In this document: one piece after another, positions 27,409 through 53,446 of the stretch | Layout of the letters: each line of letters starts with the position of its first letter | Numbering within the stretch: the stretch's first letter is position 1 | Assembly (NCBI GenBank): GCA_025359915.1 | Contig: JANYDE010000084.1 | Coordinates: 1-64,000 of the forward strand | Length of the DNA stretch: 64,000 nucleotides | Source: Chamaesiphon sp. 336R_metabinner_41 | Lineage (GTDB): Bacteria > Cyanobacteriota > Cyanobacteriia > Cyanobacteriales > Chamaesiphonaceae | Direction of reading: 5' to 3' | Position numbers and translations under genes: made by a program | The notes under the pieces: model-generated | Seen by the model: the letters and a program-made list of their open reading frames with translations, nothing else | Database searches by the model: none | Told to the model about the DNA's origin: nothing

Positions 27409-27462
27409 TTTTGATAAATTTTAAATAAACAAACTATAGTAATTAATTTTTAGTTAATTGCC

Positions 27463-28536: not shown

Positions 28537-28637
28537 TTTGTTTGCTGTGGGGATAGTTAATTAATTCAGTCTTGTCTATTCAAAGAAAATGAAATTAAAT
28601 TTTTGTCATTCAACACTCATCATGGGAAAATTAGACT

Positions 28638-29918: not shown

Positions 29919-29968
29919 AGAGATAGTCTTTCATTTTGGGTATAACAATCTTTACTTTTAGTAAAAGG

Positions 29969-35400: not shown

Positions 35401-36720
35401 TACCGTCAGTCCATCGAGATCCAAGTTTAGATCCTCAATGTTGAGCATATTAAATAATACTTGAAATAAGGGATTGCGACTGAGATCGCGGCGGGGGTTG
35501 AGTTCTTCGATCAGTTTTTCAAACGGAACATCTTGATGACTGTAGGCACCTAGTGCAATTTTGCGGACGCGCCCTAGTAATGCTTGGAAACTGGGATTGC
35601 CAGATAAATCGGCATTTAATAATAAGGTATTGATAAAAAAGCCAATTAAGCTTTCTACTTCGGTGCGATTGCGGCAAGCGATCGGCGAAGCAATGATAAA
35701 ATCTTCTTGTCCGCTATGGCGGGACATGAGCATTTGGAATGCTGCGAGGAGCGTCATAAACAGCGTAGTGCCCTCCTGACGACAGAGAGCCTTGAGATCT
35801 GTGGTGAGCTTGGGGGATAGACTTATGCTGGTAATTGCACCAGCATAAGTCTGAATTGCCGGACGGGGATAATCTGTTGGTAATTCTAAGACGGGATTGA
35901 CATTGACTAGCTGTTGTTTCCAGTAGTCGAGTTGCTGGGCGATAACTTCGCCAGAAAGCCACTCACGCTGCCATACAGCATAGTCTGCATACTGAATTTG
36001 GAGGGGGAGTAAGGGATTGGGTTTGTGAGCTGAGAAGGCATTGTAGACTTGTCCCAATTGCTGCCAAAATAGTCCCATTGACCAAGCATCGGAAGTAATA
36101 TGGTGCATCGTCGCCAGAAAAATATGCTGGTTGGGTGCTAATTGGACTAAGCAACAGCGCAACATCAAATCAGTGGCTAGATCGAACGGTTTTCGACTAG
36201 CTTGATAGAGATATGCTTGGACTGATGCTTGTTGCTCGGTGGGTGGGGACTGCTGGAGATCGAGGATCTCTACTTTTACTGGAGTAGGTGGATTGATGAC
36301 TTGGATTGGATTGCCATCTACCGTGAGATAATTAGTACGGATCGCTTCATGTTGGACGACAATCGCATCGAGAGCTTGTTGGAGGATCTGAACATCCAAG
36401 GTGCCTGCCAACTTTACAGCTTCAGGAATGTTGTAGGAAGAGCTATTTGGTTCGATCCGATCGAGAAACCACAATCTTTGTTGAGCGAAAGACAATGGCA
36501 AATCTTGATCGCGAGAAACAGTTGGAATCGGTTCTACTGTCGATCCGATCCCTTCGCCTTGATGTAAAAAGGTAATAATTTCCGCTTTGCGATCTGCGAG
36601 TGCCGATCGCAATCGAGGTGTAAGAGCATCATTAGGTGCCTTACATTTGAGCTTTTCACCATCGGTAGAAAGCTGAATGCCGAGTAGACGTAGTTCGGAT
36701 AATAATTCTAGTGTACTCAT
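32494..36720 (-). CDS. NRPS, TubC-type docking-C-A-PCP-TE (terminal module)
   Basis: 1408 residues. Residues 1-52 resemble a TubC N-terminal docking domain (STLELLSELRLLGIQLS). A condensation domain spans about 70-510 with MHHITSDAWS at 205-214; the usual DG is DA. The A domain runs about 535-1045 (A3 FFTSGTTGVPKG, A5 LYGPTETT, A10 GKIDSRAL). The specificity pocket, read by eye, is DVRHFALLAK, which I cannot assign. A PCP has Ser1092 in LGGHSLL. A type I thioesterase covers about 1145-1400 with GYSFAG (Ser1222) and a late PHYELL His. It would release the finished chain. The start overlaps the upstream NRPS by 4 bp. Confidence 0.93.
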   Translation of the reverse strand: MSTLELLSELRLLGIQLSTDGEKLKCKAPNDALTPRLRSALADRKAEIITFLHQGEGIGSTVEPIPTVSRDQDLPLSFAQQRLWFLDRIEPNSSSYNIPEAVKLAGTLDVQILQQALDAIVVQHEAIRTNYLTVDGNPIQVINPPTPVKVEILDLQQSPPTEQQASVQAYLYQASRKPFDLATDLMLRCCLVQLAPNQHIFLATMHHITSDAWSMGLFWQQLGQVYNAFSAHKPNPLLPLQIQYADYAVWQREWLSGEVIAQQLDYWKQQLVNVNPVLELPTDYPRPAIQTYAGAITSISLSPKLTTDLKALCRQEGTTLFMTLLAAFQMLMSRHSGQEDFIIASPIACRNRTEVESLIGFFINTLLLNADLSGNPSFQALLGRVRKIALGAYSHQDVPFEKLIEELNPRRDLSRNPLFQVLFNMLNIEDLNLDLDGLTVAPIAIAEANSKFDLTLYVKEQDRQIHFDLAYNTDLFAPARMVEMLAQFEQLLTQIVANPDRQIQSYSLVTPAAQAFLPNPQIALLQPEFVPITTTFTNWATQTPNQAAIIQAARTWTYQELATAAQNIAQILSANNLSIGNTVAVSGDRSFGLIASMLGVLISGGVLLNLDPNLPAARQQLMLSTAKAKYLLAVGTEGSLAEPLGSRIVNLGADFEILTINPDTGKTSCPEPILDPNPAPITLPLDAAAYIFFTSGTTGVPKGVLGTHQGLAHFLHWQRETFSIVPEDRAAQLTGLSFDVVLRDIFLPLTSGATLCLPSSTEDLTPGRILPWMESQQITILHTVPTLAQSWLMNVPPGVSLRTLRRIFFAGEPLRDTLIHQWRKTFPAAGEIINLYGPTETTLAKCYYRLPQNIRAGIQPVGRTLPQTQALLFKPDRQVCGIGETGEIAIRTPFRTNGYLNGSAANQSQFINNPFRADAQDDLIYLTGDRGRYLPDGTLEILGRIDRQIKIRGVRIEPGEIAAVLDKHPEIQVTVVIAREDIPGDKRLVAYCVPKQSKIPTTSQLRQFLKQQLPDYMMPSAFVMLKTLPLTANGKIDSRALPAPDLNREESTPNFVAARDEFEVQLIKIWQQVLGVRAISITDNFFELGGHSLLAIRLFSEIERVWDKNLPLATLFEAQTIEQLANILRQEGWSAPYSSLVQIQSGGTKPPLFCVHPIGGNVLEYYNLAAYLGKDQTVYGIQSLGLDGKEVPLRSIEDMAAHYIVEMKTIQPNGPYFLVGYSFAGLVVYEIAQQLYRQGEKVALLALLDRLSPTFVPYQSPSFSELIKIHAYNLSLLNSKGRIRYIIDRIKYRSIYKGNFRDYMIGEWNNSLPPAYIDVFDANLQASDDYQTQPYPGNLTLFRCQIQPPNQALSPDLGWRDLVAGNVEIYSIAAPHYELLLEPHVQSLAEKLKLCIDKAQANYHLSIE
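34777..34806 (+). repeat. short interspersed repeat copy 3, inside an adenylation domain
   Basis: GAGAGGCTCCGCCAACGA with upstream extension, similar to the copy at 9151-9178. It lies within the NRPS gene on the opposite strand and is translated there as GSLAEPLGSRI, in a loop between A2 and A3 of the adenylation domain. Confidence 0.6.
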
Positions 36721-39700
36721 ATTTCGATCTCCTCCATCTCACCCACTATTTCGACGGAACTCTGTTGACTACTATCTTTGAACCAGATCGATGTATCGAT
36801 GCGGCTGGCTAATCCGGCAATTGTCGGTTGCTCGAATAATGATTGCAGTTGAATGTCAATTGCAAATGCTTGACGAGCACGAGAAATAACTTGAGTCGCT
36901 AATAAAGAATGCCCACCCAGCTCGAAAAAATCATCATTAGTGCCAACTTTATCGATTCTCAGCACTTGCATCCAGATCTGGGCGAGGGTAATTTCGGTGG
37001 GTGTTGAAGGAGCGACAAAGCTAGTCTGGAGCTGAAAACTACCGGAATCGGGGGCAGGTAGAGCTTTGCGATCGATCTTACCGTTTGGAGTTAGGGGTAA
37101 TGCTGGGAGGATCACCATCGCCGAGGGGAGGAAATAATCGGGTAATTTCTGTTGCAGAAATTGCCTCAATTCGCCCGGAATTGGAGCTGTTAAGGCTTGA
37201 GGATTGGCGACAAGATACGCTACCAAGCGACGATCTCCAGGGAGATCTTCTCTAATAATTACTGTTGCTTGAGCGACGGTGGGATGTTGACAGAGCAAGG
37301 ATTCGATCTCGCCTAGTTCGATTCTAAAGCCGCGTAGTTTGACTTGAAAATCCGCTCTGCCCAAGCATTCAATCTTGCCATCAGGTAAATACCGCGCTAA
37401 GTCACCTGTCTGATAAATTCGAGCGGCGGGATGATGGCTAAATAGATTGGGGATAAATTTATCTTTAGTTAAATTCGGTTGTTGCCAATAGCCGCTAGCT
37501 AATCCCACGCCACCAATATATAGTTCACCAGGAATGCCGATCGGTAATGGTTGCAGCTCTTCGTCTAGAATATAAATCTCGGTATTGGCGATCGGTCTGC
37601 CGATCGGGATCCGCTGTTCAGCTCCGGTAATCTGGTAAACTGTAGACCAAATTGTTGTCTCAGTTGGGCCATACATATTCCAAACAGCGGCACTTTTGGC
37701 AAGTAATTGAGCTGCCAAGTCGCTGGTAATTGCTTCGCCCCCACAGAGGATTTTTAGCTGTCGATTACCTACCCATTCCGCTTCGAGTAAGAGCCGCCAA
37801 GTTGAGGGGGTAGCCTGCATGATCGTAATTCCAGCATCCTCAATCGTAGCTGCCAATTTACGCCCATCCATGCCATCTTCGCGACTGAGTAATACTACCC
37901 GCGCGCCGACAGTGATTGGTAAGAAAATTTCCAGTACCGCAATATCAAAGGATAGCGTCGTCACAGACAAGAGAATATCTGTTGCCGTCATCCCTGGTTG
38001 CTGTTGCATCGAAGTCAGGAAATTTACCACGCCGCGATGTAAGACTTCGACTCCCTTGGGTTTACCTGTAGAGCCGGAAGTATAGATGATGTAGGCAATA
38101 TTGTCAGGACTAATCTCGACTTGTGGCGCAGTTGTCGAAGATTGAGCGATTTTGTCCCAATCTGTATCGAGACAAACTCGCTGTTTAACCTGAGTCGGTA
38201 AGTGTTCGATTAAAGGCTGTTGAGTTAACAGCACATTAATTTGAGCATCTGCGAGCATATACTCGATCCGATCGAGTGGATAATGAGGATCGATCGGCAC
38301 ATAGGCTGCACCTGCTTTGAGAATGCCCAGCAATCCAACTACCATCGCCAGAGAACGCTCGATGCAAATCCCGACAAAGGTTTCCGGTTGCACGCCCAAA
38401 TCAATCAGATAATTGGCGACTTGATTTGCTTGCAGATCTAGCTCGGCATAGGTGAGCTGTTGTCCTGCATACACCACAGCCACAGCATCAGGAGTCAATT
38501 TAACTTGCGTCTCAACTAACTGATGTAGACATTGTGTATCGGGATAATCCGCCTGAGTCGCATTCCAATCTACCAGTAACTGTTGTCTCGCCGCTGTTGT
38601 CAGCAGGGGTAATTGGGAAATTAACTGTTCGGGATTAGCGATGATGCCCAGCAACAACGTTTCAAATTCGGACAGATGCCGCCGAATTGTTGATCGATCG
38701 AATAAATTGGTATTATACTGACACTCCAAGACGATCTTGTCACTAAGTTCTACCGCATTGATAAATAGCTCAAACGTCTCAAACTCACGCGGGTTGAGAT
38801 GACTAGATAGCTCCAATCCGCTAAATAACTGACTATTACTTGCCGCAGCTCTGTCTAGATTAAACATAATCGGCACTAGCGGAATCCGGCTCGGATCTCG
38901 CGGTAGAGCTAATTTACTCACCAGGCTACCAAAGGTAAATTGTTGGTGTTCATAAGCATCTAGAATAGTCGATCGACGCTGTTGTAAATAGTCTGTAAAC
39001 GAACGTTTGGGATCGATTTGACTTCGTAGCGGTAATAAGTTGGTACAGTGTCCTACCAGCCGATCTTGCCCTGAGGCAACTTGCCCACAAGCAGGAATGC
39101 CGACGACTAAATCGGACTGCCCCGTCAGGCGATGCAGCAACACCTCAAATCCCGCCAGGATCGTCGTCGCAAAACTACAACCAAATTTTTTACCGAGTTG
39201 TTTCAATCCCTCGCCGACTTCAGCATCCAGATCATAATCTTCCCGCGCTGCATTGAACGTGCGGAATGGTGGGCGGGATCGATCGGTGGGAAAATCAACT
39301 ACAGGCACAGCATCGGCAAACTGTGTCAACCAGTATTGTTCAGTTTCAACGGCATCAGGCTGTTGTGCTGCGGCAATTTCGGCAATCGCATAGTCACTAA
39401 ATTTTTCAGCAACTGGCAGATTTGGATTAATGCCCTGAGCTTGAGCCGAATATAACGCGCCCAAATCTTCGATCAGAATCGTCCAAGACCAACCATCACA
39501 GATGATATGGTGGGCATTGAGCAGTAGTAAATGCTCTTGCTGTGCTAATTTGATAATTTGTGCCCGAAATAGGGTTCCTTGCTCGATATTGAAAGGCTGG
39601 TTGAGATCTTGCTTGACGATCTGGGCTAACTGAAAATCTCGTTCTGGTGGTGGTAGGGGAGTAAGATCGATCGTCGGAATATCGATCGGTAAATCGGCAA

Positions 39701-39995
39701 TAATACAGAGTGATTCGCCGTTTGAGCTGAAGGTGGTTCTAAGTGATTCGTGCCTGCTGACTAATTGTTGGAGAGCCGATGCTAGAGCCGATTGATTGAG
39801 CGTTCCAGTCAATCGGAATGACTGAGATAAATTGTAAGCACAATTAGCCGCGTCACCCATTTGAACAGACAGCCAAATTTCCGTTTGAGAGGGAGTTGCT
39901 GGTGCCGTGAGTAGCAATTCTCCATCCGCAAATGGATCGAAATCAACAGCCAGGAAGTTAGAGTGGGAATCGATCGAGATTGAGTTAGTATTCAT
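36717..39995 (-). CDS. NRPS C-A-PCP, glycine-type adenylation domain
   Basis: 1092 residues. The first 35 residues (DFDPFADGELLLTAPAT) resemble the segment that links aminotransferase domains to condensation domains in single-chain cyanobacterial PKS/NRPS proteins. C domain about 35-470 with intact AHHIICDGWS (161-170). A domain about 490-980; the pocket reads DILQLGMIWK, close to the known glycine code. PCP Ser1030 in LGGHSLL. It would condense glycine onto the beta-amino acyl product of the aminotransferase PKS. It overlaps the next NRPS gene by 4 bp and is separated from that PKS by an acyltransferase gene. Confidence 0.92.
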   Translation of the reverse strand: MNTNSISIDSHSNFLAVDFDPFADGELLLTAPATPSQTEIWLSVQMGDAANCAYNLSQSFRLTGTLNQSALASALQQLVSRHESLRTTFSSNGESLCIIADLPIDIPTIDLTPLPPPERDFQLAQIVKQDLNQPFNIEQGTLFRAQIIKLAQQEHLLLLNAHHIICDGWSWTILIEDLGALYSAQAQGINPNLPVAEKFSDYAIAEIAAAQQPDAVETEQYWLTQFADAVPVVDFPTDRSRPPFRTFNAAREDYDLDAEVGEGLKQLGKKFGCSFATTILAGFEVLLHRLTGQSDLVVGIPACGQVASGQDRLVGHCTNLLPLRSQIDPKRSFTDYLQQRRSTILDAYEHQQFTFGSLVSKLALPRDPSRIPLVPIMFNLDRAAASNSQLFSGLELSSHLNPREFETFELFINAVELSDKIVLECQYNTNLFDRSTIRRHLSEFETLLLGIIANPEQLISQLPLLTTAARQQLLVDWNATQADYPDTQCLHQLVETQVKLTPDAVAVVYAGQQLTYAELDLQANQVANYLIDLGVQPETFVGICIERSLAMVVGLLGILKAGAAYVPIDPHYPLDRIEYMLADAQINVLLTQQPLIEHLPTQVKQRVCLDTDWDKIAQSSTTAPQVEISPDNIAYIIYTSGSTGKPKGVEVLHRGVVNFLTSMQQQPGMTATDILLSVTTLSFDIAVLEIFLPITVGARVVLLSREDGMDGRKLAATIEDAGITIMQATPSTWRLLLEAEWVGNRQLKILCGGEAITSDLAAQLLAKSAAVWNMYGPTETTIWSTVYQITGAEQRIPIGRPIANTEIYILDEELQPLPIGIPGELYIGGVGLASGYWQQPNLTKDKFIPNLFSHHPAARIYQTGDLARYLPDGKIECLGRADFQVKLRGFRIELGEIESLLCQHPTVAQATVIIREDLPGDRRLVAYLVANPQALTAPIPGELRQFLQQKLPDYFLPSAMVILPALPLTPNGKIDRKALPAPDSGSFQLQTSFVAPSTPTEITLAQIWMQVLRIDKVGTNDDFFELGGHSLLATQVISRARQAFAIDIQLQSLFEQPTIAGLASRIDTSIWFKDSSQQSSVEIVGEMEEIEI

Positions 39996-40064: not shown

Positions 40065-41198
40065 CTAACTTGAAAGTTGTGGCTTGGGCTTAAGGAAATT
40101 TCGCGTCGGCACTTCGATGAAATGATATGTCAACGCTGCTACAAGTAGAGATATTGGGATGAATAGAGCTAGAGCTAATAAACAGCTATCTAGATCGAAA
40201 TCACTACCAAATGCGCTATGAAATTTGTACATCCAGAATGTTTCCAAGCACTCGATCAGACACCAATGCACCATGTAAATTGAATAAGAAATCTTCCCCA
40301 AATATAACATTGGCGGAGAATTCAATATTTTCGATACAAATCCATTGGTTGAAATAGATAAGGATATAATCAGCAGTGAGAATGCTGGTAGCGTCAACCA
40401 ATCAAAAGTTACCCGCCGCCGAATCCCTATGTGCATCAGAAATACAACCAGGATCGTAGATATAATCTCCAGTAAATTAAAATTTAGATAATTCTGATAT
40501 TTTCCCCATTGATAAACTTTGTAAGTAATAATCCCCAAGACACATTCTAGAGCGCATCTCGCGATCGACGGAATGCCAATAATTGATTCTAGTGTACCTC
40601 TCGTAACTTTGATTAAGATCAAGAGCAGAATCAATGTGACAATATAAACAATCCAGTCAGTTTTAGGTTTGGTTTTGAGCAGCGCAAACAAGATAAATGG
40701 AAAGATACAGTAAATCAAAAATTCGACACTAATCGACCAGGCAGGCTCATTCCAACTACTTTTACACCATAATAGCGGCGGACAATTGAAGTCAAAAGCT
40801 TGGAGCATAAACACATTGGCAAACAGAGCCGTGATATTAAACTTCCCTGTAAATGCTGAAAAATTTGGCAAGGATAATTTTAATAATTCTAAGCCAAATA
40901 ATATTGCTAGTGTAAATAGATGCAGTGGATAAACCCTGGCAAATCGAGCACGAAGATAGCCCCAGTAATTAGCTTTGTTCACACCCAAACAAAAACTATT
41001 TAGATAGACATGGGTCATGATAAACCCACTCAGCATAAAGAATAAATCGACAAATAAATATCCATCCCGAAAAAAGCGAGTGTAGCGTGATATAAATATC
41101 CCTGCTTCAGGTAAAGTTGAATAAGCAAAATGAAGGATCACCACGACTATTGCCGCAATACCGCGTAGAGATGTCAGTGTACCGATTTGCTTATTCAT
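40065..41198 (-). CDS. acyltransferase 3 family membrane protein (OafA-like)
   Basis: 377 residues with about ten membrane helices. SLRGIAAIVVVILH contains the R-x10-H motif of the family, followed by FVDLFFMLSGFIMTHVY. Such proteins O-acylate sugars or other extracytoplasmic acceptors. Its start overlaps the end of the PKS gene by 8 bp, so it is coupled to the NRPS/PKS set and not only to the sugar genes. The acceptor could be the peptide or the polysaccharide; sequence does not decide. Confidence 0.85.
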   Translation of the reverse strand: MNKQIGTLTSLRGIAAIVVVILHFAYSTLPEAGIFISRYTRFFRDGYLFVDLFFMLSGFIMTHVYLNSFCLGVNKANYWGYLRARFARVYPLHLFTLAILFGLELLKLSLPNFSAFTGKFNITALFANVFMLQAFDFNCPPLLWCKSSWNEPAWSISVEFLIYCIFPFILFALLKTKPKTDWIVYIVTLILLLILIKVTRGTLESIIGIPSIARCALECVLGIITYKVYQWGKYQNYLNFNLLEIISTILVVFLMHIGIRRRVTFDWLTLPAFSLLIISLSISTNGFVSKILNSPPMLYLGKISYSIYMVHWCLIECLETFWMYKFHSAFGSDFDLDSCLLALALFIPISLLVAALTYHFIEVPTRNFLKPKPQLSS

Positions 41199-44100
41199 GA
41201 GTTTGTACCTGCAAATACTTACCCGCTCGATCCGGATCGGGAATAAACCAAGCTGGGTTGCCCTGACGATCTCGACCTAATTTTGCTCCAGGTTGTGGAG
41301 GTTGATTTTCGAGGGTAGGCGCGATATTACGAGGCGGTTCGAGATCGCCATTGAGTGCAATCTTCGATACTGGTTGTCGATCTGATGAATCTAATAAACC
41401 AGATGTTTGCAGCTCGGCGATACACTCTTTAAAAGCTGTCATCACGACTGCCAGATCGCCGTCAGTATGGGCTGTCGTCAAGAAACAAGGACGACGATCG
41501 TAGATATGAATTCCGTTCAATCGCATCAAGTAAAATAACAAATCTCCAGCTAGGAAATTGGGCGGATATTTGACCATAAATAGCGAACCAAAATTATGGG
41601 CGGTAAATGGTACGCCTACCTGCTGGAAATAAGCCATCAATTCGGCGACAAATCGATCGGTCTTGGCATTAAGCTGTTGTTGTAAACTAGCACCACTCTG
41701 TTTGAGATGTGTGAGTACTGCTTTGGCGGCGGCGAGGGCGAGGGGATGACGGACAAATGTACCTGCAAAATAAGTTACTCCCACCTCTGGAATCGAGTCA
41801 TCGCCAAATTGCCAGTAGCCACCATCGAGGGCGTCCATATATTTGGAGGTACCCGCAATTACGCCAATCGGCAATCCGCCGCCGACGATTTTGCCATAGG
41901 TAGCGATGTCGGCTTTGACTCCAAAGTGTGCCTGTGCGCCGCCAGGATGAATCCGAAATCCTGTAACAACTTCGTCAAAAATTAACGCGATCCCAGCTTC
42001 CTGGGTAAATTCGCGCAGTTGGTGGAGTAATTCGCGTGGCTGGTATTCAGGAGATCGACTTTGGACGGGTTCGACCATCACCGCCGCTAATTCATCCGCC
42101 CGACTCCTAAGAATATCGAGTGCGTCGGGCGCGTCGTAATCAATCACCAGAATATTGGCGACCATTTCAGGTGGAATGCCTGGAGCCGCAGGAATCGATC
42201 GCAATTGCTTGGTACCGCGCACGACAACTTCATCTAAAATGCCATGATAAGATCCGGCAAAAATGGCGATTAAATCTCTCCCTGTGACCGTTCGGGCGAT
42301 CCGCATCGCTCCCAGTACAGCTTCCGAGCCAGTATTGCAGAAGGCGGCTCGATCGAAATTAGTCAGTTCGCACATCAATTTGGCAACCTCGCCGACTAAG
42401 GGAGACTGTGGCCCAATTTCCATACCGAGTTGGAGTTGAGTGGTAATTGCTGAGGTGACAAATGCTGGCGACCACCCAAATAGATTCAAGCCAAAGCCAC
42501 TAACTAAATCGACATACTCATTACCATCGATATCCCAGAGCTTCGAGCCACTGGATCGATCGACTACAATCGGATATACCATCTCCTTGATCGTGGGATT
42601 AAAGCCCGACACTGTGCGCGGATCTGCGAGATAAGCTCGATGCGCTGCCGCAAACTGTTTGGATTTCTGCGTCCGCTGAGTATATTTAACAATAATTTTG
42701 TCCAGATGAGCGCGTTGTCCATCGGTCAGGGTTTTAGCTTGGTTTTTAGCTGCATTTGGTAACTCGATCCGACTGCGTAATAGTTCGTGAGTCTGGGCGG
42801 AAGGAGGAGCTACAGTACTAATCACCACAGGGGCTTCAGATTTGATATTTTGGCGCGAATTACCATGCTCAGGCTCAATTGCGGGGGTTGGTGCCGAGGA
42901 ATGATGCTGACCCAATAAAGCTAGTTGTTGAGCCATTAATTGTAACTGCTGACCGATGACAGTTTCTACCAAACTCGATCCAGCTAGTTGGGGTGTAATC
43001 GTCGGGGAAACGTTGACGGGGCGATGATGATTGTCATTGTGTGGCAGAACTGGGACAGCGGCGATGATCGGAGTGACAATTGCGGGAGCAACTGGTACCA
43101 CTGGCACTGGCAAAACATCTGCTGGTAACGTCGCGATCAGAAAATTGGCGAATGTGTCGAAAGTAGGATAAAGTTCGAGCAACTGTCGGAGTGTGACTTT
43201 GACTCGAAACTTTTTCTTGAGCGCGATCCCAATTTGAGTGAGCGATAAAGAATCTAGCCCCATTTCGAGAAATGTTGTCGATTCAGCTACATTAATCATT
43301 TCCAGCCCTGATGTTGCTGCAAAAATTTCTTTCAGGAGGTCAATCAGCAAACGATTTGGTGCTTCTGTCTTCAACATGGGTAACGATGGCTGAGGTTGCG
43401 GCTGCGATGTAGATGCTCGATCGATAACTGACGAATCAGGTGAATGATGATTGTGATGGGGGAGTGAATCGATCCAAAAACGTTGGCGTTCAAAGGGATA
43501 TGTCGATAGGGGCACTCGCCGGCGAGTTTCATGTCGATCGAATTTGTCCCAATTGCTGGTAGAGCCTACTTCTTGGTTAATGGCAACACCTGCCAACCAG
43601 AGTTGTCCGACAGCTTGGAGTAAGACTTTCCACTCATTTTCTGGCGCATCATTCAGGGAAGAAATAGCGATTTGCTGCTGGAGATCTTTGGCTTGTTGGC
43701 GGGCTAGAGTCGCTGTGGTTGATCGAGGGCCAACTTCCAGCAATACCCGCTCTGGCTGCTGCCAAATTGTTTGAATTCCTGGTGCGAATTTAACCGTCTG
43801 GCGGATCTGCGTTGCCCAGTATAGTGGATTAGTTGCTTGCTGATCAGTGATCCAATCACCAGTAACTGTCGAAACAAATGGAATTTGGGGCGGTGATAGT
43901 TTCACCTGTCCGACTAAATTGGCAAATGGATCGATCATCGGATCCATCATTGATGAGTGAAAAGCGTGAGAAGCATGTAGTAACCGACAGACAATTTCTT
44001 TGTCAGTTAACTGGGCTTGTAAGCTCTCGATCTCTGCTGTTGGGCCAGATACGACGCATAGCGTGGGGCTATTAATTGCCGCAATCGTCAGATTGCCGCT

Positions 44101-46146
44101 CAAATGAGCCTCAATTTCGGCGGCTGGCAACCGCACCGACAGCATCGATCCGCGTGGTAAATCCCACATCAATTGACTGCGAGTTGCGACCAGTTTCAAG
44201 GCATCTTCTAAACTAAATACGCCCCCCAAACAAGCAGAGACAAATTCGCCAATACTATGTCCGATTGTCGCAGTGGGAATCACGCCCCAGCTTTGCCATA
44301 GTTGGGCGAGAGCGTATTCAGTGATGAATAGAGCGGGCTGGGTAAAACAGGTTTGCGCCAAGGTAATTGCCGCCGCTTCTATATCCGTCGTGGGATAGAT
44401 AATCGATCGAATGTCCACACCCATCAATGGCTCTAGGACGTTGGCACAGCGATCGATTATTTCTCGATAAACAGGTTCATCACGATAGAGATTTATGCCC
44501 ATGTTCACGTATTGCGAACCTTGTCCAGGAAACATAAATACGACTTCGGGATTTCGGACTTTTCGTTCGCGCGAGATTGTCCGGCGAGACTCACTCGACA
44601 GTGCTGGTAGCGCATCTGCGACATTTTCACAAACGACACAACTGCGATAATTAAATTCTTTGCGTCCGTGTCGGAGCGTATAGGCGACATCGGCAAGATC
44701 GAGATCGGGATTGGACTTTAGATGTGCCTGTAAATTACTGGTAGCAGTGGCTAACGCTGTACTAGTTTTCGCCGATAGCAACAGTAACTGTTGGGGGCGA
44801 GATTTACCAGCAGGCTGGGCGGCAGGAGCTTCTTCGAGAACGATATGGACATTGGTACCGCCAACTCCAAACGAACTCACACCCGCTCGACGCGGACTCG
44901 ATCCTGCTGGCCAATCTGTCAACTGAGTATTGACATAAAAAGGACTATTCCCTAGATCCAGCTTGGGATTGGGAGTTTCAAAATTAATACTGGGCGGAAG
45001 TTGCTTTTTGTCTAAAGCCAGCGCGATCTTCATCAACCCAACAACTCCAGCCGCATCAGCTAAATGCCCGATATTAGCTTTGATCGAGCCTAGTGCGCAA
45101 AATTGTTTAGCCTCAGTTTGGAGTCGGAATGCTTGAGTCAGAGCAGCAACTTCGATCGGATCGCCCATCGGTGTCCCCGTTCCATGTGCCTCAATATAAG
45201 CAAACGTCTCAGGATGAAAATCAGCATAAGCTTGTGCCATCGCGATCGCTTCAGCTTGTCCATCCACACTGGGAGCCGAAAAGCTGACCTTAGCAGCCCC
45301 ATCATTATTGACTCCTACGCCGCGAATTACCGCATAAATGTGGTCTCGATCGGCAACTGCTTCTTCCAGCCGTTTGAGGACAACCAAGCCCCCACCATTG
45401 CCAAATACTGTGCCACTCGATCGAGCATCAAAGGGACGACAATGACCATCTTGGGAAAAAATGCTCCCCTCTTGGTAGAGATAACCACTATGCTGAGGTA
45501 CGGCGATCGATACAGCACCCGTTACCGCCAAATCGCACTGATAACTATTTAAGGCTTGAACAGCTTGGGCAATCGCCACCAGGGAGCTAGAACAAGCCGT
45601 ACTGACACTGAGGCTCGGCCCTTTGAGATCCAGCTTATAAGACGCACGAGTAGTCAGATAGTCCTTTTCACTGGCGAACATCATCTGCAATTGACCAATG
45701 CGATCGAGAATATCCTGACGACCGTGGAGATTGTTTGTATAGTAAGTATTTTGACTGCATCCTGCGTATAAACCGATCGAGCCATCAAATCGATCGGGAT
45801 CGTAACCAGCCTGTTCTAGTCCACTAAATACTAGCTCTAAGAACACTCGCGCCTGAGGATCGATCACCTCCGCCTCACGAGGACTAATCCCAAAAAAAGC
45901 CGCATCCAAATACTCGGCATCCGCCAGCACACCTCTAGCTTTCACATAACTAGGATCTTGAGTCAACTGTCGATCCAGACTCGGATCCAGCTCTCCATCT
46001 TCAAAAAATGAGACCGACTCTACCCCCTGACAAAGATTGTCCCAAAGCTGCTCGATACTATCAGCTCCAGGAAATTTGCCAACCATCCCAATAATCGCAA
46101 TCCCATCAAGGGCATCTTGGTTTTCTACTGTGTGGATGTCACTCAT
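41191..46146 (-). CDS. type I PKS with aminotransferase: KS-AT-ACP-AMT
   Basis: 1651 residues. KS 15-440 has Cys185 in STACSSSL, His321 in EAHGTGT and His361 in NIGH. AT about 534-840 has GHSIGEF (Ser631) and HAFH (727-730), the malonyl-CoA signature. ACP about 930-1005 has Ser966 in GLDSLSL. A Gln-rich linker leads to a class III aminotransferase (about 1150-1580) with PLP Lys1419 in ATYGKIVGGG. There is no KR, DH or ER, so the beta-keto group should be aminated to a beta-amine. The C terminus ends with NPAWFIPDPDRAGKYLQV, a linker that in related proteins continues into a C domain. Confidence 0.93.
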   Translation of the reverse strand: MSDIHTVENQDALDGIAIIGMVGKFPGADSIEQLWDNLCQGVESVSFFEDGELDPSLDRQLTQDPSYVKARGVLADAEYLDAAFFGISPREAEVIDPQARVFLELVFSGLEQAGYDPDRFDGSIGLYAGCSQNTYYTNNLHGRQDILDRIGQLQMMFASEKDYLTTRASYKLDLKGPSLSVSTACSSSLVAIAQAVQALNSYQCDLAVTGAVSIAVPQHSGYLYQEGSIFSQDGHCRPFDARSSGTVFGNGGGLVVLKRLEEAVADRDHIYAVIRGVGVNNDGAAKVSFSAPSVDGQAEAIAMAQAYADFHPETFAYIEAHGTGTPMGDPIEVAALTQAFRLQTEAKQFCALGSIKANIGHLADAAGVVGLMKIALALDKKQLPPSINFETPNPKLDLGNSPFYVNTQLTDWPAGSSPRRAGVSSFGVGGTNVHIVLEEAPAAQPAGKSRPQQLLLLSAKTSTALATATSNLQAHLKSNPDLDLADVAYTLRHGRKEFNYRSCVVCENVADALPALSSESRRTISRERKVRNPEVVFMFPGQGSQYVNMGINLYRDEPVYREIIDRCANVLEPLMGVDIRSIIYPTTDIEAAAITLAQTCFTQPALFITEYALAQLWQSWGVIPTATIGHSIGEFVSACLGGVFSLEDALKLVATRSQLMWDLPRGSMLSVRLPAAEIEAHLSGNLTIAAINSPTLCVVSGPTAEIESLQAQLTDKEIVCRLLHASHAFHSSMMDPMIDPFANLVGQVKLSPPQIPFVSTVTGDWITDQQATNPLYWATQIRQTVKFAPGIQTIWQQPERVLLEVGPRSTTATLARQQAKDLQQQIAISSLNDAPENEWKVLLQAVGQLWLAGVAINQEVGSTSNWDKFDRHETRRRVPLSTYPFERQRFWIDSLPHHNHHSPDSSVIDRASTSQPQPQPSLPMLKTEAPNRLLIDLLKEIFAATSGLEMINVAESTTFLEMGLDSLSLTQIGIALKKKFRVKVTLRQLLELYPTFDTFANFLIATLPADVLPVPVVPVAPAIVTPIIAAVPVLPHNDNHHRPVNVSPTITPQLAGSSLVETVIGQQLQLMAQQLALLGQHHSSAPTPAIEPEHGNSRQNIKSEAPVVISTVAPPSAQTHELLRSRIELPNAAKNQAKTLTDGQRAHLDKIIVKYTQRTQKSKQFAAAHRAYLADPRTVSGFNPTIKEMVYPIVVDRSSGSKLWDIDGNEYVDLVSGFGLNLFGWSPAFVTSAITTQLQLGMEIGPQSPLVGEVAKLMCELTNFDRAAFCNTGSEAVLGAMRIARTVTGRDLIAIFAGSYHGILDEVVVRGTKQLRSIPAAPGIPPEMVANILVIDYDAPDALDILRSRADELAAVMVEPVQSRSPEYQPRELLHQLREFTQEAGIALIFDEVVTGFRIHPGGAQAHFGVKADIATYGKIVGGGLPIGVIAGTSKYMDALDGGYWQFGDDSIPEVGVTYFAGTFVRHPLALAAAKAVLTHLKQSGASLQQQLNAKTDRFVAELMAYFQQVGVPFTAHNFGSLFMVKYPPNFLAGDLLFYLMRLNGIHIYDRRPCFLTTAHTDGDLAVVMTAFKECIAELQTSGLLDSSDRQPVSKIALNGDLEPPRNIAPTLENQPPQPGAKLGRDRQGNPAWFIPDPDRAGKYLQVQTHE

Positions 46147-46245: not shown

Positions 46246-49200
46246 CTATCTCCGGCGACGAGCATTAGCAGCTTTTTGCTGTTCTGCTCGATTTTTGAGT
46301 TGACTATTTGACTGTTGAACTGGTTGTACTCCATTCAAATAGGCTGCCAACTTCGCAATCGTGGGATACTGAAACAGCTTCACCACAGGTATTTCGATTC
46401 CCCCCAATTTTTGCTGGACTCCAGCCGCCACTCGAAGAATGGAGATCGAATGTCCTCCCAATTCAAAGAAATTTTCATGAACGCCAATCTGATTTCGTCC
46501 TAAAACTTCCGACCAAATTGTGACTAAAATTGCTTCTGTCGAGTTACTAGATTTAGAGCTACCAACTACATCAACAGTCGTTGAATTGGTGGTGATGTGC
46601 CAGGGCAGCGGCTCCGCCAACGAACTATTGGTTACTAAATTATTATTCCCACTGATTGTCTGAATATCGACTTTATTCGCCAAAAATGCTCGACGATCGA
46701 CCTTACCATTTACAGTAAGTGGAACAGCAGCGACAACTACAAATACCACCGGAATCATGTAGGTAGGGATGCGATCGACTAGAAAATCTCGTAATTCGGT
46801 CGTTGTAAAGTGGCGATTCTTTGTGACCAGATAAGCCTCCAACCGCTTGTCCCCATTTACTTCTCTCACGATTACCACGCTATCTTCAATGGCTGGATGT
46901 TGGCTCAGTGCGGCTTCAATCTCGCCGAGTTCGATCCGAAATCCCCGAATTTTGACCTGGTTATCGATCCGTCCAATATATTCTAGGTTTCCATCTGGCA
47001 AATACCGAGCTAAGTCACCAGTCTTATATAGACGTGCATCTCTAGATATTGCGGAGTTCGCTGTAGTGGTTGAGTGCAGGGAGAAAGACGATTGTGAAGC
47101 TTCAATCAAGGGGTTTGGAATAAATCGTTCCTGTGTTAATTCAGCTCGTTGCCAATAGCCTTGGGTGACACCAGCTCCACCGACATACATTTCGCCAATA
47201 ACGCCGATGGGGACAGGTTGAAGATCGGCATCTAAGATATAGACTTGAAGATCGGGAATTGGGCGACCGATGAGACTACCCGTAGATTGCAGATCTGCAC
47301 GGGTGAGCGGACGATAGGTGACATGAACGGTAGTTTCGGTAATGCCATACATATTGACCAATTGGGGTGTCGTGTCCCCATGTCGATCGAACCACGGCTC
47401 TAAACTAGGTAGATTCAATGCTTCACCTCCAAAAATTATCAGCCGGAGGCTTAATTGTGCGCTTAGATGTAATCTTTCATCTATTCTACTCAATTGCGCA
47501 AAAGCTGACGGTGTTTGATTGAGGACTGTAACTTTTTCAGATCCTAATAATCGATAAAATTCCACCGGATCTCGACTGACGAAATAGGGGACGATGATCA
47601 GTTTTCCACCATATAATAATGCCCCCCAAATTTCCCAAACCGAGAAATCAAAAGCAAAGGAATGAAATAACGTCCAAACATCCTGTTCGTTAAAATGGTA
47701 CCAATCATCTGTCGCGGCAAATAAGCGGCTCACATTTTGATGGTTTACCAATACTCCCTTTGGCTGTCCGGTGGAACCAGAGGTGTAAATAACGTAGGCT
47801 AGATCGTCAGATTTGCCACTGGGGGCTGGATTTTCGATTGAATATTCACCAATTGTCTGAATATCTCGATCTAAACAAATAATTTGAGCGCAACTAGTCA
47901 AATTAGCTACTAAATCAGCGGTAGTGATGAGGATCGTAACTTGGGCATCGTTTAAGATAGATGCCGAACGTTCTGGCGGATTGCTCGGATCGATCGGTAA
48001 GTAAGCTCCCCCTGCTTTGAGAATTCCTAAAATTCCGACGATTGTCTCGATCGATCGCTCGACACAAAGTCCGACTAATACATTCGATTCCACACCCAAA
48101 CTTTGTAAGTAGTGTGCTAATTGATTGGCGCGATGATTTAACTCTCGATAAGTTAATTTTTGGTCGGCAAATACTAAGGCAATGCGATCTGGATTTTGAG
48201 CTACCTGGCGTTCAAATAAGTGATGAAGACAGATCTCTGACTGGTAATTTGACGACGATTGTTGGGCGAATCCTACTAACTGCTGTCGCTCTGCCTCCGT
48301 CAACATCGGTAACTGTGAAATTGACTGTTGAGGGTTCGCGACAATTCCCGCTAACAACTGCTGAAAATGACCATTCAATCGATCGATCGTCGCCGCATCA
48401 AATAAGTCCGAATTATATACCCACTGTCCGGCTAGTCCATCGCTAGCTGGTTTGAGATATAACGTCAGATCAAATTTGGCGGTATTCGCTTCAATCGTCC
48501 AAGGAATGGCTGTGAGTCGATCGAGTTCGATGGTGTCAAATCGGATATTTTCTTCAAATACCAAGGTGAATTGGAGCTGTAAGCCCTCAATCAGCTCGAT
48601 CGGCACTGCCTGATGCTGCCTTGCCAACTTAGCAACCCGATTCACTTGTTGTAGTAATGCGGCAAACTCAGGATTGCCAGCTAAGTCGCTGCGTACAGCG
48701 ACTGCATTCACAAAAATTTCGGCACCAATCAGATCGACAGTCGGCATTCCGACCATCAGATCCTCACTACCTGTATAACGATAAAGTAAGATCTGGAATA
48801 CTGCTAATAATGTTGTCGATAGCGAGACCCCTTGTTGCTGGCTGAGTGTCTCCAGTGCCGCAGTCAATGCTCGATCGATCTCAAAAGATCTAGCTTTACC
48901 GCGACAAATCGCTTGCGCCTGTCTGGGACGAGCCATTGGCAGCGATAATAATCCTGGTGCGCCGTCCAACTGCTGCTGCCAATAAGCCAATCCAGCTTGC
49001 AATGGTAATTCTCCCAATTGAGCAATTAGAGCCGATTTAGCTGATGCATAGACATCTCGATCGATCGACTCCAGCCGAGGATCGTAGTTTAACATCAACC
49101 GGAGATTTCCCAGCGCGGCGACCCAGTTATGCGCCTGAAGACAGCGCATCAGCTCATAAGGTAGTCGATCTCCAAAAAATTTGATCCACGCAGTTCGTCC

Positions 49201-49971
49201 GGTTTCATAGGCAATGAGATCTTCGGGTTTGCCACTTTGTCGGACATAATTCCACTCCAAACTGTGAACGGCTAAAGTCCCGATCAGCATTTTAGCTGAC
49301 GCACTAGAAACATTCCCACCGTGATATCGATATTCAGATACTACTCGATCGTGAAATTCGATCGGAAATGCCCGCGCAATCTCCAAAAATAGATGTAGAT
49401 CTTCCATCACCGTAAAACTGGGATCGAATCCGCCCCTAGACTCATTGGCGCAGAGTACCGCTGATCGGCGGAAGATTGCCGTAGCGCACTGGATTTTGTG
49501 TTGAGCGGCTAAAATCGTCGCATAACTAGCTACGGCTGGCGGATCCTCTGATAGTTGTTGGGTAGTATAGGAGCCATCGGGATTAATCGATCGAAATAAA
49601 TAATTGCCAAATCCAAACCCAGCTTCTGGAGAAGCTTTCAAGCACTCTACCCCAATCTCGATCGTCTCAGGAAACAGGCAGTCATCGCTATCAAGGAAAA
49701 TCAAATATTCGCCCTGACTGGCATGAATACCTGTATTCCGCGCACTAGCAGCACCTTGATTATCTTGGTAGATATATGTCACCGCTGGATAGCGAGCGCA
49801 AACTATTTTGGTATCATCGATCGAACCATCATCGACAACGATCATCTCGATCGCTGGATAAGTCTGGCTCAACACACTTTCAATTGCTGCTGGCAAAAAT
49901 TCACCGCTATTATAGGCGGGGATGATTACGGAAACACTGGATTTGTTTGAGTCAGACAAAAATAACTGCAT
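46246..49971 (-). CDS. GT2 glycosyltransferase-half condensation-A(Thr)-PCP fusion
   Basis: 1241 residues. Residues 1-320 are a complete GT2 with VSVIIPAYNSGEFL, VVDDGSIDDT, DSD at 94-96, SARNTGI and the MEDL catalytic-base region (Glu190-Asp191). Residues about 322-560 are only the C-terminal lobe of a condensation domain, starting at YWQQQL (330); the lobe with HHxxxDG is absent. The A domain (about 575-1098) has the pocket DFWNIGMVHK, the known threonine code. PCP Ser1175 in LGGHSIS. The C-terminal RAEQQKAANARRRR matches the NRPS-to-KS linker of the 53759 protein. It should load Thr for the next PKS, and may glycosylate it, which is inference. Confidence 0.92.
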   Translation of the reverse strand: MQLFLSDSNKSSVSVIIPAYNSGEFLPAAIESVLSQTYPAIEMIVVDDGSIDDTKIVCARYPAVTYIYQDNQGAASARNTGIHASQGEYLIFLDSDDCLFPETIEIGVECLKASPEAGFGFGNYLFRSINPDGSYTTQQLSEDPPAVASYATILAAQHKIQCATAIFRRSAVLCANESRGGFDPSFTVMEDLHLFLEIARAFPIEFHDRVVSEYRYHGGNVSSASAKMLIGTLAVHSLEWNYVRQSGKPEDLIAYETGRTAWIKFFGDRLPYELMRCLQAHNWVAALGNLRLMLNYDPRLESIDRDVYASAKSALIAQLGELPLQAGLAYWQQQLDGAPGLLSLPMARPRQAQAICRGKARSFEIDRALTAALETLSQQQGVSLSTTLLAVFQILLYRYTGSEDLMVGMPTVDLIGAEIFVNAVAVRSDLAGNPEFAALLQQVNRVAKLARQHQAVPIELIEGLQLQFTLVFEENIRFDTIELDRLTAIPWTIEANTAKFDLTLYLKPASDGLAGQWVYNSDLFDAATIDRLNGHFQQLLAGIVANPQQSISQLPMLTEAERQQLVGFAQQSSSNYQSEICLHHLFERQVAQNPDRIALVFADQKLTYRELNHRANQLAHYLQSLGVESNVLVGLCVERSIETIVGILGILKAGGAYLPIDPSNPPERSASILNDAQVTILITTADLVANLTSCAQIICLDRDIQTIGEYSIENPAPSGKSDDLAYVIYTSGSTGQPKGVLVNHQNVSRLFAATDDWYHFNEQDVWTLFHSFAFDFSVWEIWGALLYGGKLIIVPYFVSRDPVEFYRLLGSEKVTVLNQTPSAFAQLSRIDERLHLSAQLSLRLIIFGGEALNLPSLEPWFDRHGDTTPQLVNMYGITETTVHVTYRPLTRADLQSTGSLIGRPIPDLQVYILDADLQPVPIGVIGEMYVGGAGVTQGYWQRAELTQERFIPNPLIEASQSSFSLHSTTTANSAISRDARLYKTGDLARYLPDGNLEYIGRIDNQVKIRGFRIELGEIEAALSQHPAIEDSVVIVREVNGDKRLEAYLVTKNRHFTTTELRDFLVDRIPTYMIPVVFVVVAAVPLTVNGKVDRRAFLANKVDIQTISGNNNLVTNSSLAEPLPWHITTNSTTVDVVGSSKSSNSTEAILVTIWSEVLGRNQIGVHENFFELGGHSISILRVAAGVQQKLGGIEIPVVKLFQYPTIAKLAAYLNGVQPVQQSNSQLKNRAEQQKAANARRRR
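46605..46624 (+). repeat. short interspersed repeat copy 4, in an A-PCP linker
   Basis: GCAGCGGCTCCGCCAACGAA lies inside the GT2-NRPS gene and is read on the minus strand as SSLAEPLP in the unconserved linker between the adenylation and carrier domains. Confidence 0.6.
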
Positions 49972-50129: not shown

Positions 50130-51533
50130 TTAAACCCCAATTCCTACATAGGTAAAACCAGCTTCGGTCATTTTTGCTGCGGATAGGAAATTGCGGCAAT
50201 CGATCGTTAGTGGACAGCGCATTAATGTGGCTAAATGTTGATAATCTAAAGATTGAAACTCCGCCCATTCTGTCATCAGGACGATCGCATCACAATCGGC
50301 TGCTAATAGTTCTGGACTATTCACTAACGTCGCCCCAGCTAGATTTACGTGTACATCAGTAACGATCGGATCGTATGCTTTAACTTTCACGCCCAATCGA
50401 ACTAGCATCGCGATCGTTTCCAGTGCTGGAGCATCACGCAAATCGTCAGTATCAGGCTTAAATGCTAACCCTAAAATCCCGACAGTTTTACCTTTCAAAA
50501 TCTTCAGATATTTTTGTAGCTTGTGAATCACTAGAGCGCGTTGTCCTTGATTGACACTTACTGTCGCTTTGAGTAGTTGAGCATCATAGCCATAATCCGC
50601 TCCAGTATGAATGAGTGCGGCTAAATCTTTGGGAAAACAAGAGCCACCCCAACCAATCCCCGCATTCAAGAATTTATTGCCAATCCGTGAATCCAAACCA
50701 ATTCCCTGAGAAACCTGCGTGACATCTGCACCCACCCGTTCGCAAATATTAGCAATTTCATTGATAAAACTAATTTTCGTAGCCAGGAAAGCATTTGCGG
50801 CGTACTTAATCATTTCAGCCGAACCCAAATCGGTAGTCAATACCGAAACAGGTGCCGGGACAGCTCGATCAGCTTGGCGTAACTCCTGGGTTTGGGGACA
50901 ACGATCGATAATTGGGGCATACAAATCTAGCATCAGATCGATCGCCCGTTGGCTACCACTACCCAATACAATCCGATCGGGATTGAGCGTATCGTAGATC
51001 GCCGAACCTTCACGCAAAAATTCAGGATTGCTGACTACATCGAACTGTACATTTGGCAGCCGCGATTGTATGTGATTTCCCGCACCAACTAAACTCAATT
51101 GGGGCTGATTTTCGATCACTCCATCAAGTACCAGCATTTTTACCCAATCGCCAGAGCCGATCGGTACGGTAGACTTATTTACAATCACTTTATAACTACC
51201 GTCGAGATGCTTACCAATTCCTTTGGCGACAGCTTCTACATATTTGGTATTAGTAGCTCCATTAGGTAAAGAAGGAGTTCCTACCGCAATAAATAAAATC
51301 TCCCCATGTTCCACACCCCGCGCGAGATCGGTGGTGAATTTCAGTCGATTGCTGGCCATTGCCGAACGCATAATCTCGGCTAAACCCGGCTCATAAATTG
51401 GTGACTGTCCAGACTGCAATAACTCTACCTTGGCAAGATCGTTATCTACACAGATCACGTCGTGACCGATATGTGCCAAACAAGCTCCAGTCACCAAACC
51501 TACATAACCAGTCCCGATCGTACAAACGCGCAT
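50130..51533 (-). CDS. ugd: UDP-glucose 6-dehydrogenase
   Basis: 467 residues. Ugd oxidises UDP-glucose twice to UDP-glucuronate with NAD. The N-terminal Rossmann fold has CTIGTGYVGLVTGACLAHIG; the catalytic Cys is in GIGWGGSCFPKDLAAL; the C-terminal UDP-binding domain has VGILGLAFKPDTDDLRDAPAL. An unconserved insert near 135-160 (LDGVIENQPQLSLVGAGNHI) is a known variable region. It provides an acidic sugar precursor for the polysaccharide, or UDP-xylose after decarboxylation, which would fit the GH10 enzymes in the locus. First gene of the minus-strand run. Confidence 0.92.
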   Translation of the reverse strand: MRVCTIGTGYVGLVTGACLAHIGHDVICVDNDLAKVELLQSGQSPIYEPGLAEIMRSAMASNRLKFTTDLARGVEHGEILFIAVGTPSLPNGATNTKYVEAVAKGIGKHLDGSYKVIVNKSTVPIGSGDWVKMLVLDGVIENQPQLSLVGAGNHIQSRLPNVQFDVVSNPEFLREGSAIYDTLNPDRIVLGSGSQRAIDLMLDLYAPIIDRCPQTQELRQADRAVPAPVSVLTTDLGSAEMIKYAANAFLATKISFINEIANICERVGADVTQVSQGIGLDSRIGNKFLNAGIGWGGSCFPKDLAALIHTGADYGYDAQLLKATVSVNQGQRALVIHKLQKYLKILKGKTVGILGLAFKPDTDDLRDAPALETIAMLVRLGVKVKAYDPIVTDVHVNLAGATLVNSPELLAADCDAIVLMTEWAEFQSLDYQHLATLMRCPLTIDCRNFLSAAKMTEAGFTYVGIGV

Positions 51534-51988: not shown

Positions 51989-53446
51989 ATGACCGATCTC
52001 AAAAAACCTGATAGCTTAGATGGTCTGCGACAAACAGAAGACATTCGGGCGACAAATCTATCAATGGACTGGTGGAGGGCCATGGATTGGCTCCAATCAC
52101 TCGTGCTGATCTGTTTAGATACTGCCATGCTATTTGTCTCGTGGACTTTGGCGGATCGGATCGGCACGCCCACAGTAGGACTTCATATTGCAGACTCGAT
52201 GTTGCCAATTTTGGCAGCTAGTCTTGCCACTCTTGCCGCTTCTGGATTTTATGGTACCGATGACAAATTCCATCGATTTGCCAAGTTGTTAAAATCGCTG
52301 ACATTAGCACATGTCGTAGTGTTAGTTGCGGCTTTTTTCTATCAGCCGGAATTTTGGGTGTCCCGCTCGGTGTTTGTAATTGCTTGGATTCTAAATTTTG
52401 TCTTGATTGCTACTGCCAGATTCCTGTTTGATGGCCTTGTAATTCAAATTCGGAAAAGCAATCCACTTTTTCAGCAAGCAATCGTGTTGGTGGGACAGCC
52501 TCAAGATATCGATCGAGCCAGAAAATTATTAAAGCGATCTCAACAATTTAGAATCGATAGTATTATCGATCTATCCATTTGGGATATGAGTAGTCAATTA
52601 GATGAAATTTTTGACCAGATTAAATCACGGAAAATCAGTGAAGTCTTTCTTTGTTCTCAACAATTAATCGACAATCAAATTGTCTTTTTCTGGAACTTGA
52701 AATCAGCAGGTATTCACCTGAGAATGGTGCCGACCGAGCTACAACTTCCCCAACGGTCGGCTGAAACAAAGATGATTGAAGAAATTCCAACACTGCGATT
52801 CAAATCTTTATCGATTTTTGGAATTAACTTTTGGTTGAAACGCACTCTCGATCGAATTGCCGCATTCTCGATTTTAGTAGTAATATCGCCAATTTTATTG
52901 TTAATTGCTATTTTAGTCAAAAAAACATCGACAGGGCCAATTTTCTATAGACAAGATCGCGTTGGCTTAAAAGGTCGCCGCTTTAAGGTCTGGAAATTTC
53001 GGACGATGGTCCAAAATGCTGGCGAATTACAAAAAGCACTGGAAGAGCAAAACGAAGTTAAAGGAGGCGTACTCTTTAAAATTAAACACGATCCTCGGAT
53101 TACGAAGATTGGTAAGTTTTTGCGTGATTATAGTTTGGATGAATTACCGCAGTTAATTAATGTGCTGCAAGGTGAAATGAGTCTGGTGGGACCGCGTCCG
53201 CTACCCATTAGAGACTATGAATTATCGATCCAAAATGCCGATGAATTTGCTAGAGATAAATTTTTGCGTTACGAGGTGTTACCTGGGATCACTGGGTTGT
53301 GGCAAGTCAAAGGTCGTGCTACTATTGATTCTGATGAAATCTTCTATTGGGATATGGTATATATCCTGGAATGGTCGCTGGTGCTAGATTTAAGAATATT
53401 ACTCCAAACGGTGAAGGTTGTATTGTTTAAGGAGGGATCTTATTAA
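51989..53446 (+). CDS. polyprenyl glycosylphosphotransferase (WcaJ-type initiating enzyme)
   Basis: 485 residues. The N-terminal half has about four membrane helices (to residue 150) and a CoA-binding-like cytosolic domain. The C-terminal catalytic part begins at LKRTLDRIAAFSILVVISPILLL, then GPIFYRQDRVGLKGRRFKVWKFRTM, SLDELPQLINVLQGEMSLVGPRP and LPGITGLWQVKGR. It transfers a sugar-1-phosphate to undecaprenyl phosphate and so starts the repeat unit. A Shine-Dalgarno GGAG lies 8 nt before the ATG. It is divergent from ugd and 312 bp upstream of the hybrid megasynthase. Confidence 0.92.
   Translation: MTDLKKPDSLDGLRQTEDIRATNLSMDWWRAMDWLQSLVLICLDTAMLFVSWTLADRIGTPTVGLHIADSMLPILAASLATLAASGFYGTDDKFHRFAKLLKSLTLAHVVVLVAAFFYQPEFWVSRSVFVIAWILNFVLIATARFLFDGLVIQIRKSNPLFQQAIVLVGQPQDIDRARKLLKRSQQFRIDSIIDLSIWDMSSQLDEIFDQIKSRKISEVFLCSQQLIDNQIVFFWNLKSAGIHLRMVPTELQLPQRSAETKMIEEIPTLRFKSLSIFGINFWLKRTLDRIAAFSILVVISPILLLIAILVKKTSTGPIFYRQDRVGLKGRRFKVWKFRTMVQNAGELQKALEEQNEVKGGVLFKIKHDPRITKIGKFLRDYSLDELPQLINVLQGEMSLVGPRPLPIRDYELSIQNADEFARDKFLRYEVLPGITGLWQVKGRATIDSDEIFYWDMVYILEWSLVLDLRILLQTVKVVLFKEGSY

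Follow-up and report, generated by a model that had tools for sequence, protein, structure and literature searches.

Which chain is handed to a polyketide synthase (PKS) module that ends in an aminotransferase (AMT), and why does its assembly line lie among exopolysaccharide (EPS) genes? The question is raised by a stretch of 64,000 nucleotides (hereafter the window) of Chamaesiphon sp. 336R_metabinner_41, a part of the 112,986-base contig JANYDE010000084.1 (C74) in a 4.23-Mb genome estimated as 100% complete. From the letters of the window, the original prediction had placed at 41191-46146 a module composed of ketosynthase (KS), acyltransferase (AT), acyl carrier protein (ACP) and AMT that extends a threonyl starter loaded by the upstream protein. 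We find that a Thr-primed, beta-aminating step carried out by these two proteins, P0002 and P0001, is probable from their domains, codes and phylogeny. Unexpectedly, the family is broad and is tied to EPS operons, which we did not find described in the literature searched. The two proteins, all on the minus strand, are organized as follows.

41191-46146, minus: P0001, KS-AT-ACP-AMT, the main feature; intact open reading frame of 1,651 aa (Pfam domains and motifs)
44827-46107, minus: KS domain of P0001, aa 14-440 (Pfam; amino-acid-fed clade in the KS tree)
43537-44559, minus: AT domain of P0001, HAFH motif (Pfam PF00698 and motif)
43129-43353, minus: ACP domain of P0001, GLDSL (Pfam PF00550 and motif)
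41377-42726, minus: class-III AMT domain of P0001, pyridoxal phosphate (PLP) lysine kept (Pfam, alignment, AMT tree)
46246-49971, minus: P0002, loading protein directly upstream of P0001, with GT2 glycosyltransferase, C-terminal lobe of a condensation (C) domain, Thr adenylation (A) domain and peptidyl carrier protein (PCP) (Pfam, A code)
49282-49944, minus: GT2 domain of P0002, LDSDD and MED motifs (Pfam and alignment)
48274-48999, minus: condensation C-terminal lobe (C-lobe) of P0002, profile positions 192-456 only, without HHxxxDG (Pfam and motif check)
46696-48264, minus: A domain of P0002, code DFWNIGMVHK for Thr (A code, NCBIfam score)
46339-46527, minus: PCP of P0002, with the tail RAEQQKAANARRRR at the protein end (Pfam and sequence)

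The aminotransferase module and its starter

The module is present as predicted. In P0001, Pfam domains follow the order KS (PF00109/PF02801), KS-AT linkers, AT (PF00698), ACP (PF00550) and class-III aminotransferase (PF00202, 1.3e-44). The motifs are intact in the KS (TACSSS at 183, EAHGTGT at 319, NIGH at 358), the AT (GHSIG at 629 and HAFH at 727, the latter of the malonyl type) and the ACP (GLDSL at 963), and the YGK motif of the AMT holds the PLP lysine (1417) in a column that is invariant across the 17 AMTs aligned. The Pfam scan of P0001 revealed no ketoreductase (KR), dehydratase, enoylreductase or methyltransferase domain. This composition supports the assignment of P0001 as a beta-aminating PKS module, predicted to leave a beta-amine on its product. 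Since full orthologues occur in two congeners (78% and 75% identity), the reading frame is not a chance one. Of the NCBIfam models shown for P0001 and P0002, only the generic one for adenylation domains reached its cut-off.

The starter is predicted by the A domain of P0002, whose code DFWNIGMVHK is an exact match to the Stachelhaus code for Thr and is listed as such in passages of PMC12283262. On TIGR01733, the model for amino-acid adenylation (cut-off 317.4), this domain scores 447 bits, and two fatty-acyl-AMP ligases that lead AMT lines obtain 170-180 bits there, against 474-486 on the fatty-acid-AMP ligase model. With the latter model, no such ligase was found in the window, as originally stated, nor in the whole 4.23-Mb genome (best score 63.7 bits versus 474-486), and the starter pair of a fatty-acyl-primed lipopeptide line, a fatty-acyl-AMP ligase plus an ACP, is missing.

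The phylogenies point in the same direction. The KS tree includes 72 of the 110 KS rows (the non-cyanobacterial ones were thinned to every third), with two domains (G051_C87 and G013_C163) set as fatty-acyl-fed by hand and five labelled "none". With 100% support, one branch sets apart 12 rows, of which 7 are fatty-acyl-fed, 3 PKS-fed and 2 unassigned; the other 60 comprise 55 amino-acid-fed rows, 3 unassigned ones and the exceptions L180 (fatty-acyl-fed) and L172 (PKS-fed). The KS of P0001 lies within a branch of 39 rows (96%), all of them amino-acid-fed. In the AMT tree (42 rows), a branch at 97% gathers all six fatty-acyl-fed AMTs with G013_C18 and the amino-acid-fed L145, and P0001 is on the other side, which holds 31 of the 32 amino-acid-fed rows, P0001 counted. 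Because of these two positions, both inside clades of the amino-acid-primed KS-AMT family, P0001 is not placed in the fatty-acyl-accepting clade that the original prediction had set against its own proposal. As for G013_C18 (L061), it encodes C-A-PCP, KS-AT and ACP-AMT-C-A on separate proteins; its architecture is that of an amino-acid-fed line, but its AMT clusters with the fatty-acyl-fed ones.

The relatives show how the two proteins belong together. Among the 110 collected KS domains, 73 have A-PCP upstream and an AMT downstream. The complete order GT2-A-PCP-KS-AT-ACP-AMT is a single polypeptide in four related genomes (G003, G006, G009 and G010), and, where full-length proteins are available, most named loci have A-PCP-KS-AT-ACP-AMT on one protein. 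A break at the PCP-KS linker divides the chain in the window, in G002, in G005 and in two Nostoc genomes. A-PCP thus directly precedes the KS, on the same protein or across the linker split, as expected of the amino-acid-primed family.

Three genes follow P0001 on the minus strand, the first of which overlaps its end.

40065-41198, minus: membrane acyltransferase (PF01757), its start overlapping the end of P0001 (Pfam)
36717-39995, minus: P0004, C-A-PCP, code DILQLGMIW for Gly (Pfam and A code)
32494-36720, minus: P0005, TubC_N-C-A-PCP and thioesterase (TE), code DVRHFALLA, chain release (Pfam and A code)

From the domain order, the intact active sites, the Thr and Gly codes, the clades and the operon context, we infer a succession of Thr loading, malonyl extension, transamination, transfer to Gly, addition of a further residue and TE release. 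P0002 would activate L-Thr and load its own PCP, and the KS of P0001 would accept Thr from it across the split linker and extend it once with malonyl. Because P0001 has no reductive domain, the beta-ketone would reach the AMT and be transaminated to 3,4-diamino-5-hydroxyhexanoyl-ACP. P0004, whose full code DILQLGMIWK is that of Gly, would add this residue, and P0005 would add a third one before its TE frees the chain. For the P0005 code DVRHFALLA, the nearest code in the published material consulted is DPRHLALLAK (alpha-aminoadipate), which we do not take as an assignment.

The Thr-derived unit expected from the start is thus well supported as a prediction by the code, the clades and the fused relatives. 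If this is right, the building block is 3,4-diamino-5-hydroxyhexanoic acid (C6H14N2O3, calculated monoisotopic mass 162.100), which is undocumented. The qualification of this unit as uncommon stands for documented chemistry; it does not hold for the genes, since AMT modules primed by an amino acid are no rarity, with at least 569 relatives of the AMT (see below).

Breadth of the family

Three features go beyond the original prediction: the GT2 domain and C-lobe of P0002, the EPS setting, and a family that is broad and has varied starters. To describe the latter, the AMT alignment was searched against genome contigs, giving at least 587 pattern matches, of which at least 569 are relatives of the AMT and the best 80 were kept. 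These 80 are found in Cyanobacteria, relatives of Xanthomonadales, Burkholderiales, Bacteroidota and a few other phyla. Starter codes could be read in 72 of 85 AMT places (some genomes count twice) and include 22 of the DVQ type, 21 Val/Ile-like, 10 Thr and 19 others. The next A domain could be read in 69 of the 85 places, and was Gly-like in 50 of them. As the 80 loci are the best of a longer list, these shares are not frequencies. The codes nevertheless imply a shared logic in which an amino acid is extended by malonate and aminated, with Gly usually the next residue, and, if this is right, sister units made from other starters are expected in hundreds of genomes. In Parapedobacter (L120, 4907-18196), two A-PCP-KS-AT-ACP-AMT genes occur in tandem, the first Thr-coded and the second with a Ser-like code.

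The window itself holds a paralogous line on the opposite strand.

53759-61828, plus: P0003, GT2 (degenerate)-A (Thr)-PCP-KS-AT-KR-ACP-TE (Pfam, A code, KS tree, GT2 alignment)

The KS of P0003 nests inside the clade of AMT-module KSs, and a KR seems to replace the AMT, so that the predicted product is 4-amino-3,5-dihydroxyhexanoate. It is adjoined by a C-lobe-A-PCP-TE protein with the code DVQFIAHVV (61875-64000, plus strand, continuing to 65291 on the contig); a similar protein lies near the cluster of G005.

The glycosyltransferase fusion and the exopolysaccharide setting

The DxD-like motif of GT2 glycosyltransferases serves in nucleotide-sugar binding and is accompanied by an ED motif; P0002 has both. 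In the alignment of fused GT2 domains, LDSDD and the ED motif are kept in 8 of 9 rows (two rows being one contig), and the P0003 copy reads LDRHD and TDL instead, with the DxD-like motif lost. The fusion to the loading protein was found in 7 genomes. Thr-coded starters occur in 6 of the 7 GT2-fused AMT lines versus 3 of 64 unfused ones, a contrast confounded by kinship, as all fused cases are within one bacterial family. This pairing fits O-glycosylation of the Thr hydroxyl. The adjacent C domain is probably no ordinary condensation domain, because only profile positions 192-456 are kept, with neither the N-terminal lobe nor HHxxxDG. An AlphaFold model of P0002 residues 1-566 (3-row alignment) had a mean pLDDT of 36, too low for use.

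The line is surrounded by EPS genes.

50130-51533, minus: UDP-glucose/GDP-mannose dehydrogenase (Pfam)
51989-53446, plus: bacterial sugar transferase, EPS initiation (Pfam)
31057-32472, minus: Wzx-like polysaccharide flippase (Pfam)
20277-31060, minus: EPS genes, namely two GT4, two Wzy, WecG, two GH10 and Wzc (Pfam)

It is bordered on one side by the UDP-sugar dehydrogenase, beyond which is the sugar transferase, and on the other by Wzx, after which come GT4, Wzy, WecG, GH10 and Wzc. Across Chamaesiphonaceae, Wzx, Wzy, Wzc and the sugar transferase remain syntenic with the line (57-78% identity). When the EPS genes of the window were used as seeds, they matched 10 of the 13 contigs that carry amino-acid-fed AMT lines in this genome and its relatives (the others being G033_C7 and two short contigs, one of 5.2 kb and one of 4.1 kb), and none of the 7 contigs with other AMT lines (six fatty-acyl-fed loci and G013_C18). 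The two GH10 (xylanase-type) proteins are encoded at 22691-23890 and 25373-26569 (minus strand), and GH10 matches recur in related EPS clusters. A PknG-like kinase with rubredoxin and TPR parts adjoins the operon (16629-18893, minus strand).

We also measured the distance between the AMT and the nearest sugar transferase (PF02397, Bac_transf) in 48 named genomes, using the 150 matches listed, such that observed counts are lower bounds. It was at most 20 kb in at least 19 of the 48 genomes (1.13 expected at random placement) and at most 50 kb in at least 31 (2.76 expected). Among the matches listed, all 12 genomes with a single PF02397 have it 7-18 kb from the AMT. In 11 of 20 genomes, which were selected for a nearby Bac_transf, all condensation domains found (1e-30) are inside this cluster. 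The deposited annotation of Variovorax paradoxus VAI-C lists two nonribosomal peptide synthetase (NRPS)/PKS genes, a phosphopantetheinyl transferase (PPTase) and a hydrolase, followed by genes for polysaccharide export, for a tyrosine autokinase and for sugar and glycosyl transfer (sugar transferase, glycosyltransferase). Next to the line in Larkinella, Mucilaginibacter and Dyella, Pfam scans recognised genes for export proteins, flippases, polymerases, glycosyltransferases and UDP-sugar dehydrogenases.

In the plasmids of Spirosoma linguale (pSLIN02, L183) and of Variovorax RA8 and WDL1 (L184 and L185), the A-KS-AMT gene is near copper-resistance genes. The idea of a copper or metal ligand was dropped because the control Cu-oxidase_3, treated in the same way as Bac_transf, had no listed match within 50 kb of the AMT in any of the 48 genomes (nearest one on the same contig at 107.7 kb). 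No pattern of TonB receptors was found near the clusters, with one Plug-domain match among 10 large proteins.

Co-location with EPS genes is thus conserved, if not universal. With slightly less than even confidence, we propose that the line belongs to the surrounding operon, and that its peptide-polyketide would be attached to or exported with the EPS, possibly decorating or capping the polysaccharide, and that the GT2 domain fused to P0002 may add a sugar to the Thr-derived hydroxyl. Rather tentatively, we extend this to a widespread unrecognised class in Cyanobacteria, Pseudomonadota and Bacteroidota, in which vicinal diamino-acid peptides made from an amino acid and malonate would be built-in EPS substituents, the loading protein of Chamaesiphonaceae carrying the glycosyltransferase that would join a sugar to the Thr-derived unit. 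If right, this ties NRPS-PKS chemistry to polysaccharide surfaces, a tie that is directly testable where the line is the sole NRPS line and is at the sole sugar-transferase locus. Several observations weigh against these proposals. G033_C7 has no match to the EPS seeds, none of five named cyanobacteria (two Nostoc, Calothrix, Leptolyngbya and Chlorogloea) has a Bac_transf near the AMT among the matches listed, and three of the four plasmid copies inspected (Spirosoma and two Variovorax) lack a clear EPS cluster within 18 kb. The association counts come from related genomes, which are non-independent samples. The Thr code may also denote N-methyl-Thr or other variants, according to passages of PMC12283262, and the diamino product is a prediction from the genes.

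Three other explanations have to be considered. The KS might receive a fatty-acyl or other acyl chain in trans, as in microginin and puwainaphycin lines, and AMT modules fed by a fatty-acyl-AMP ligase are indeed present in the same genus and family (G003 and G010). We regard this as very improbable, given the separation of the two feeding types in both trees, the genome without the ligase, and the covalent A-PCP fusion in relatives. More serious, if still somewhat doubtful, is that the product of the line is a diamino-acid peptide secreted in free form (a signal, an antibiotic or a metal ligand), and that the line and the EPS genes have only operon and exporter in common. A TE ends most complete lines, stand-alone copies exist in Spirosoma and on the two Variovorax plasmids, and the gene most often found in the flanks encodes a PPTase (22 of the best 80 loci); against this are the synteny across Chamaesiphonaceae, the fusion of the loading protein to GT2, and the single sugar transferases close to the line described above.

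The third explanation concerns the fusion: GT2 and C-lobe might be inert relics and the product an unglycosylated Thr-derived diamino peptide. The C-lobe without its active-site motif, the decayed GT2 of P0003 and the absence of the GT2 fusion from most relatives outside Chamaesiphonaceae are in line with this possibility, which we hold to be real though not the likelier outcome, whereas the motifs kept in nearly all fused GT2 domains and the excess of Thr codes among fused lines, confounded as it is, speak against it.

Comparison with known systems

Beta-aminating AMT modules are known from cyanobacterial lipopeptides, in the lines of puwainaphycin, microginin and the Adda unit of microcystin. 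Like these, P0001 is a KS-AT-ACP with an embedded class-III aminotransferase that would set a beta-amine and is followed by NRPS modules; unlike them, it is predicted to be primed by a PCP-bound amino acid instead of a fatty-acyl-AMP ligase, and its KS and AMT belong to separate clades. In statine-type modules, and in P0003, an amino-acid-fed KS also takes a PCP-borne amino acid and one malonate, but a KR in place of the AMT gives a hydroxyl and not a second amine.

Judging by titles and abstract openings, with subscription papers mostly outside, we recognised in the literature neither an amino-acid-primed KS-AMT unit nor an NRPS-PKS line in an EPS operon, the only near match to the former being a domain survey from 2013. 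There, C6XWU5 of Pedobacter heparinus is catalogued as A-CP-KS-AT-CP-PLP1, the same domain order as the A-PCP-KS-AT-ACP-AMT line, with the cluster prediction Nrp-Mal-Gly-Pk; the survey passages give no product, EPS setting or GT2 fusion (PMC3870968). The cyanobacterial Athmu-type beta-amino polyketide lines share with P0002/P0001 a starter initiated by an A domain, an AMT in the PKS part and the type of host, but, in the passages of PMC13252402, their alpha-keto acid starter is reduced to a hydroxy acid and amination comes late, after several extensions. Finally, the genes flanking the line are those of Wzx/Wzy exopolysaccharide operons (sugar transferase, Wzx, Wzy, Wzc, WecG and GT4), from which the window differs in having an NRPS-PKS line inside the operon.

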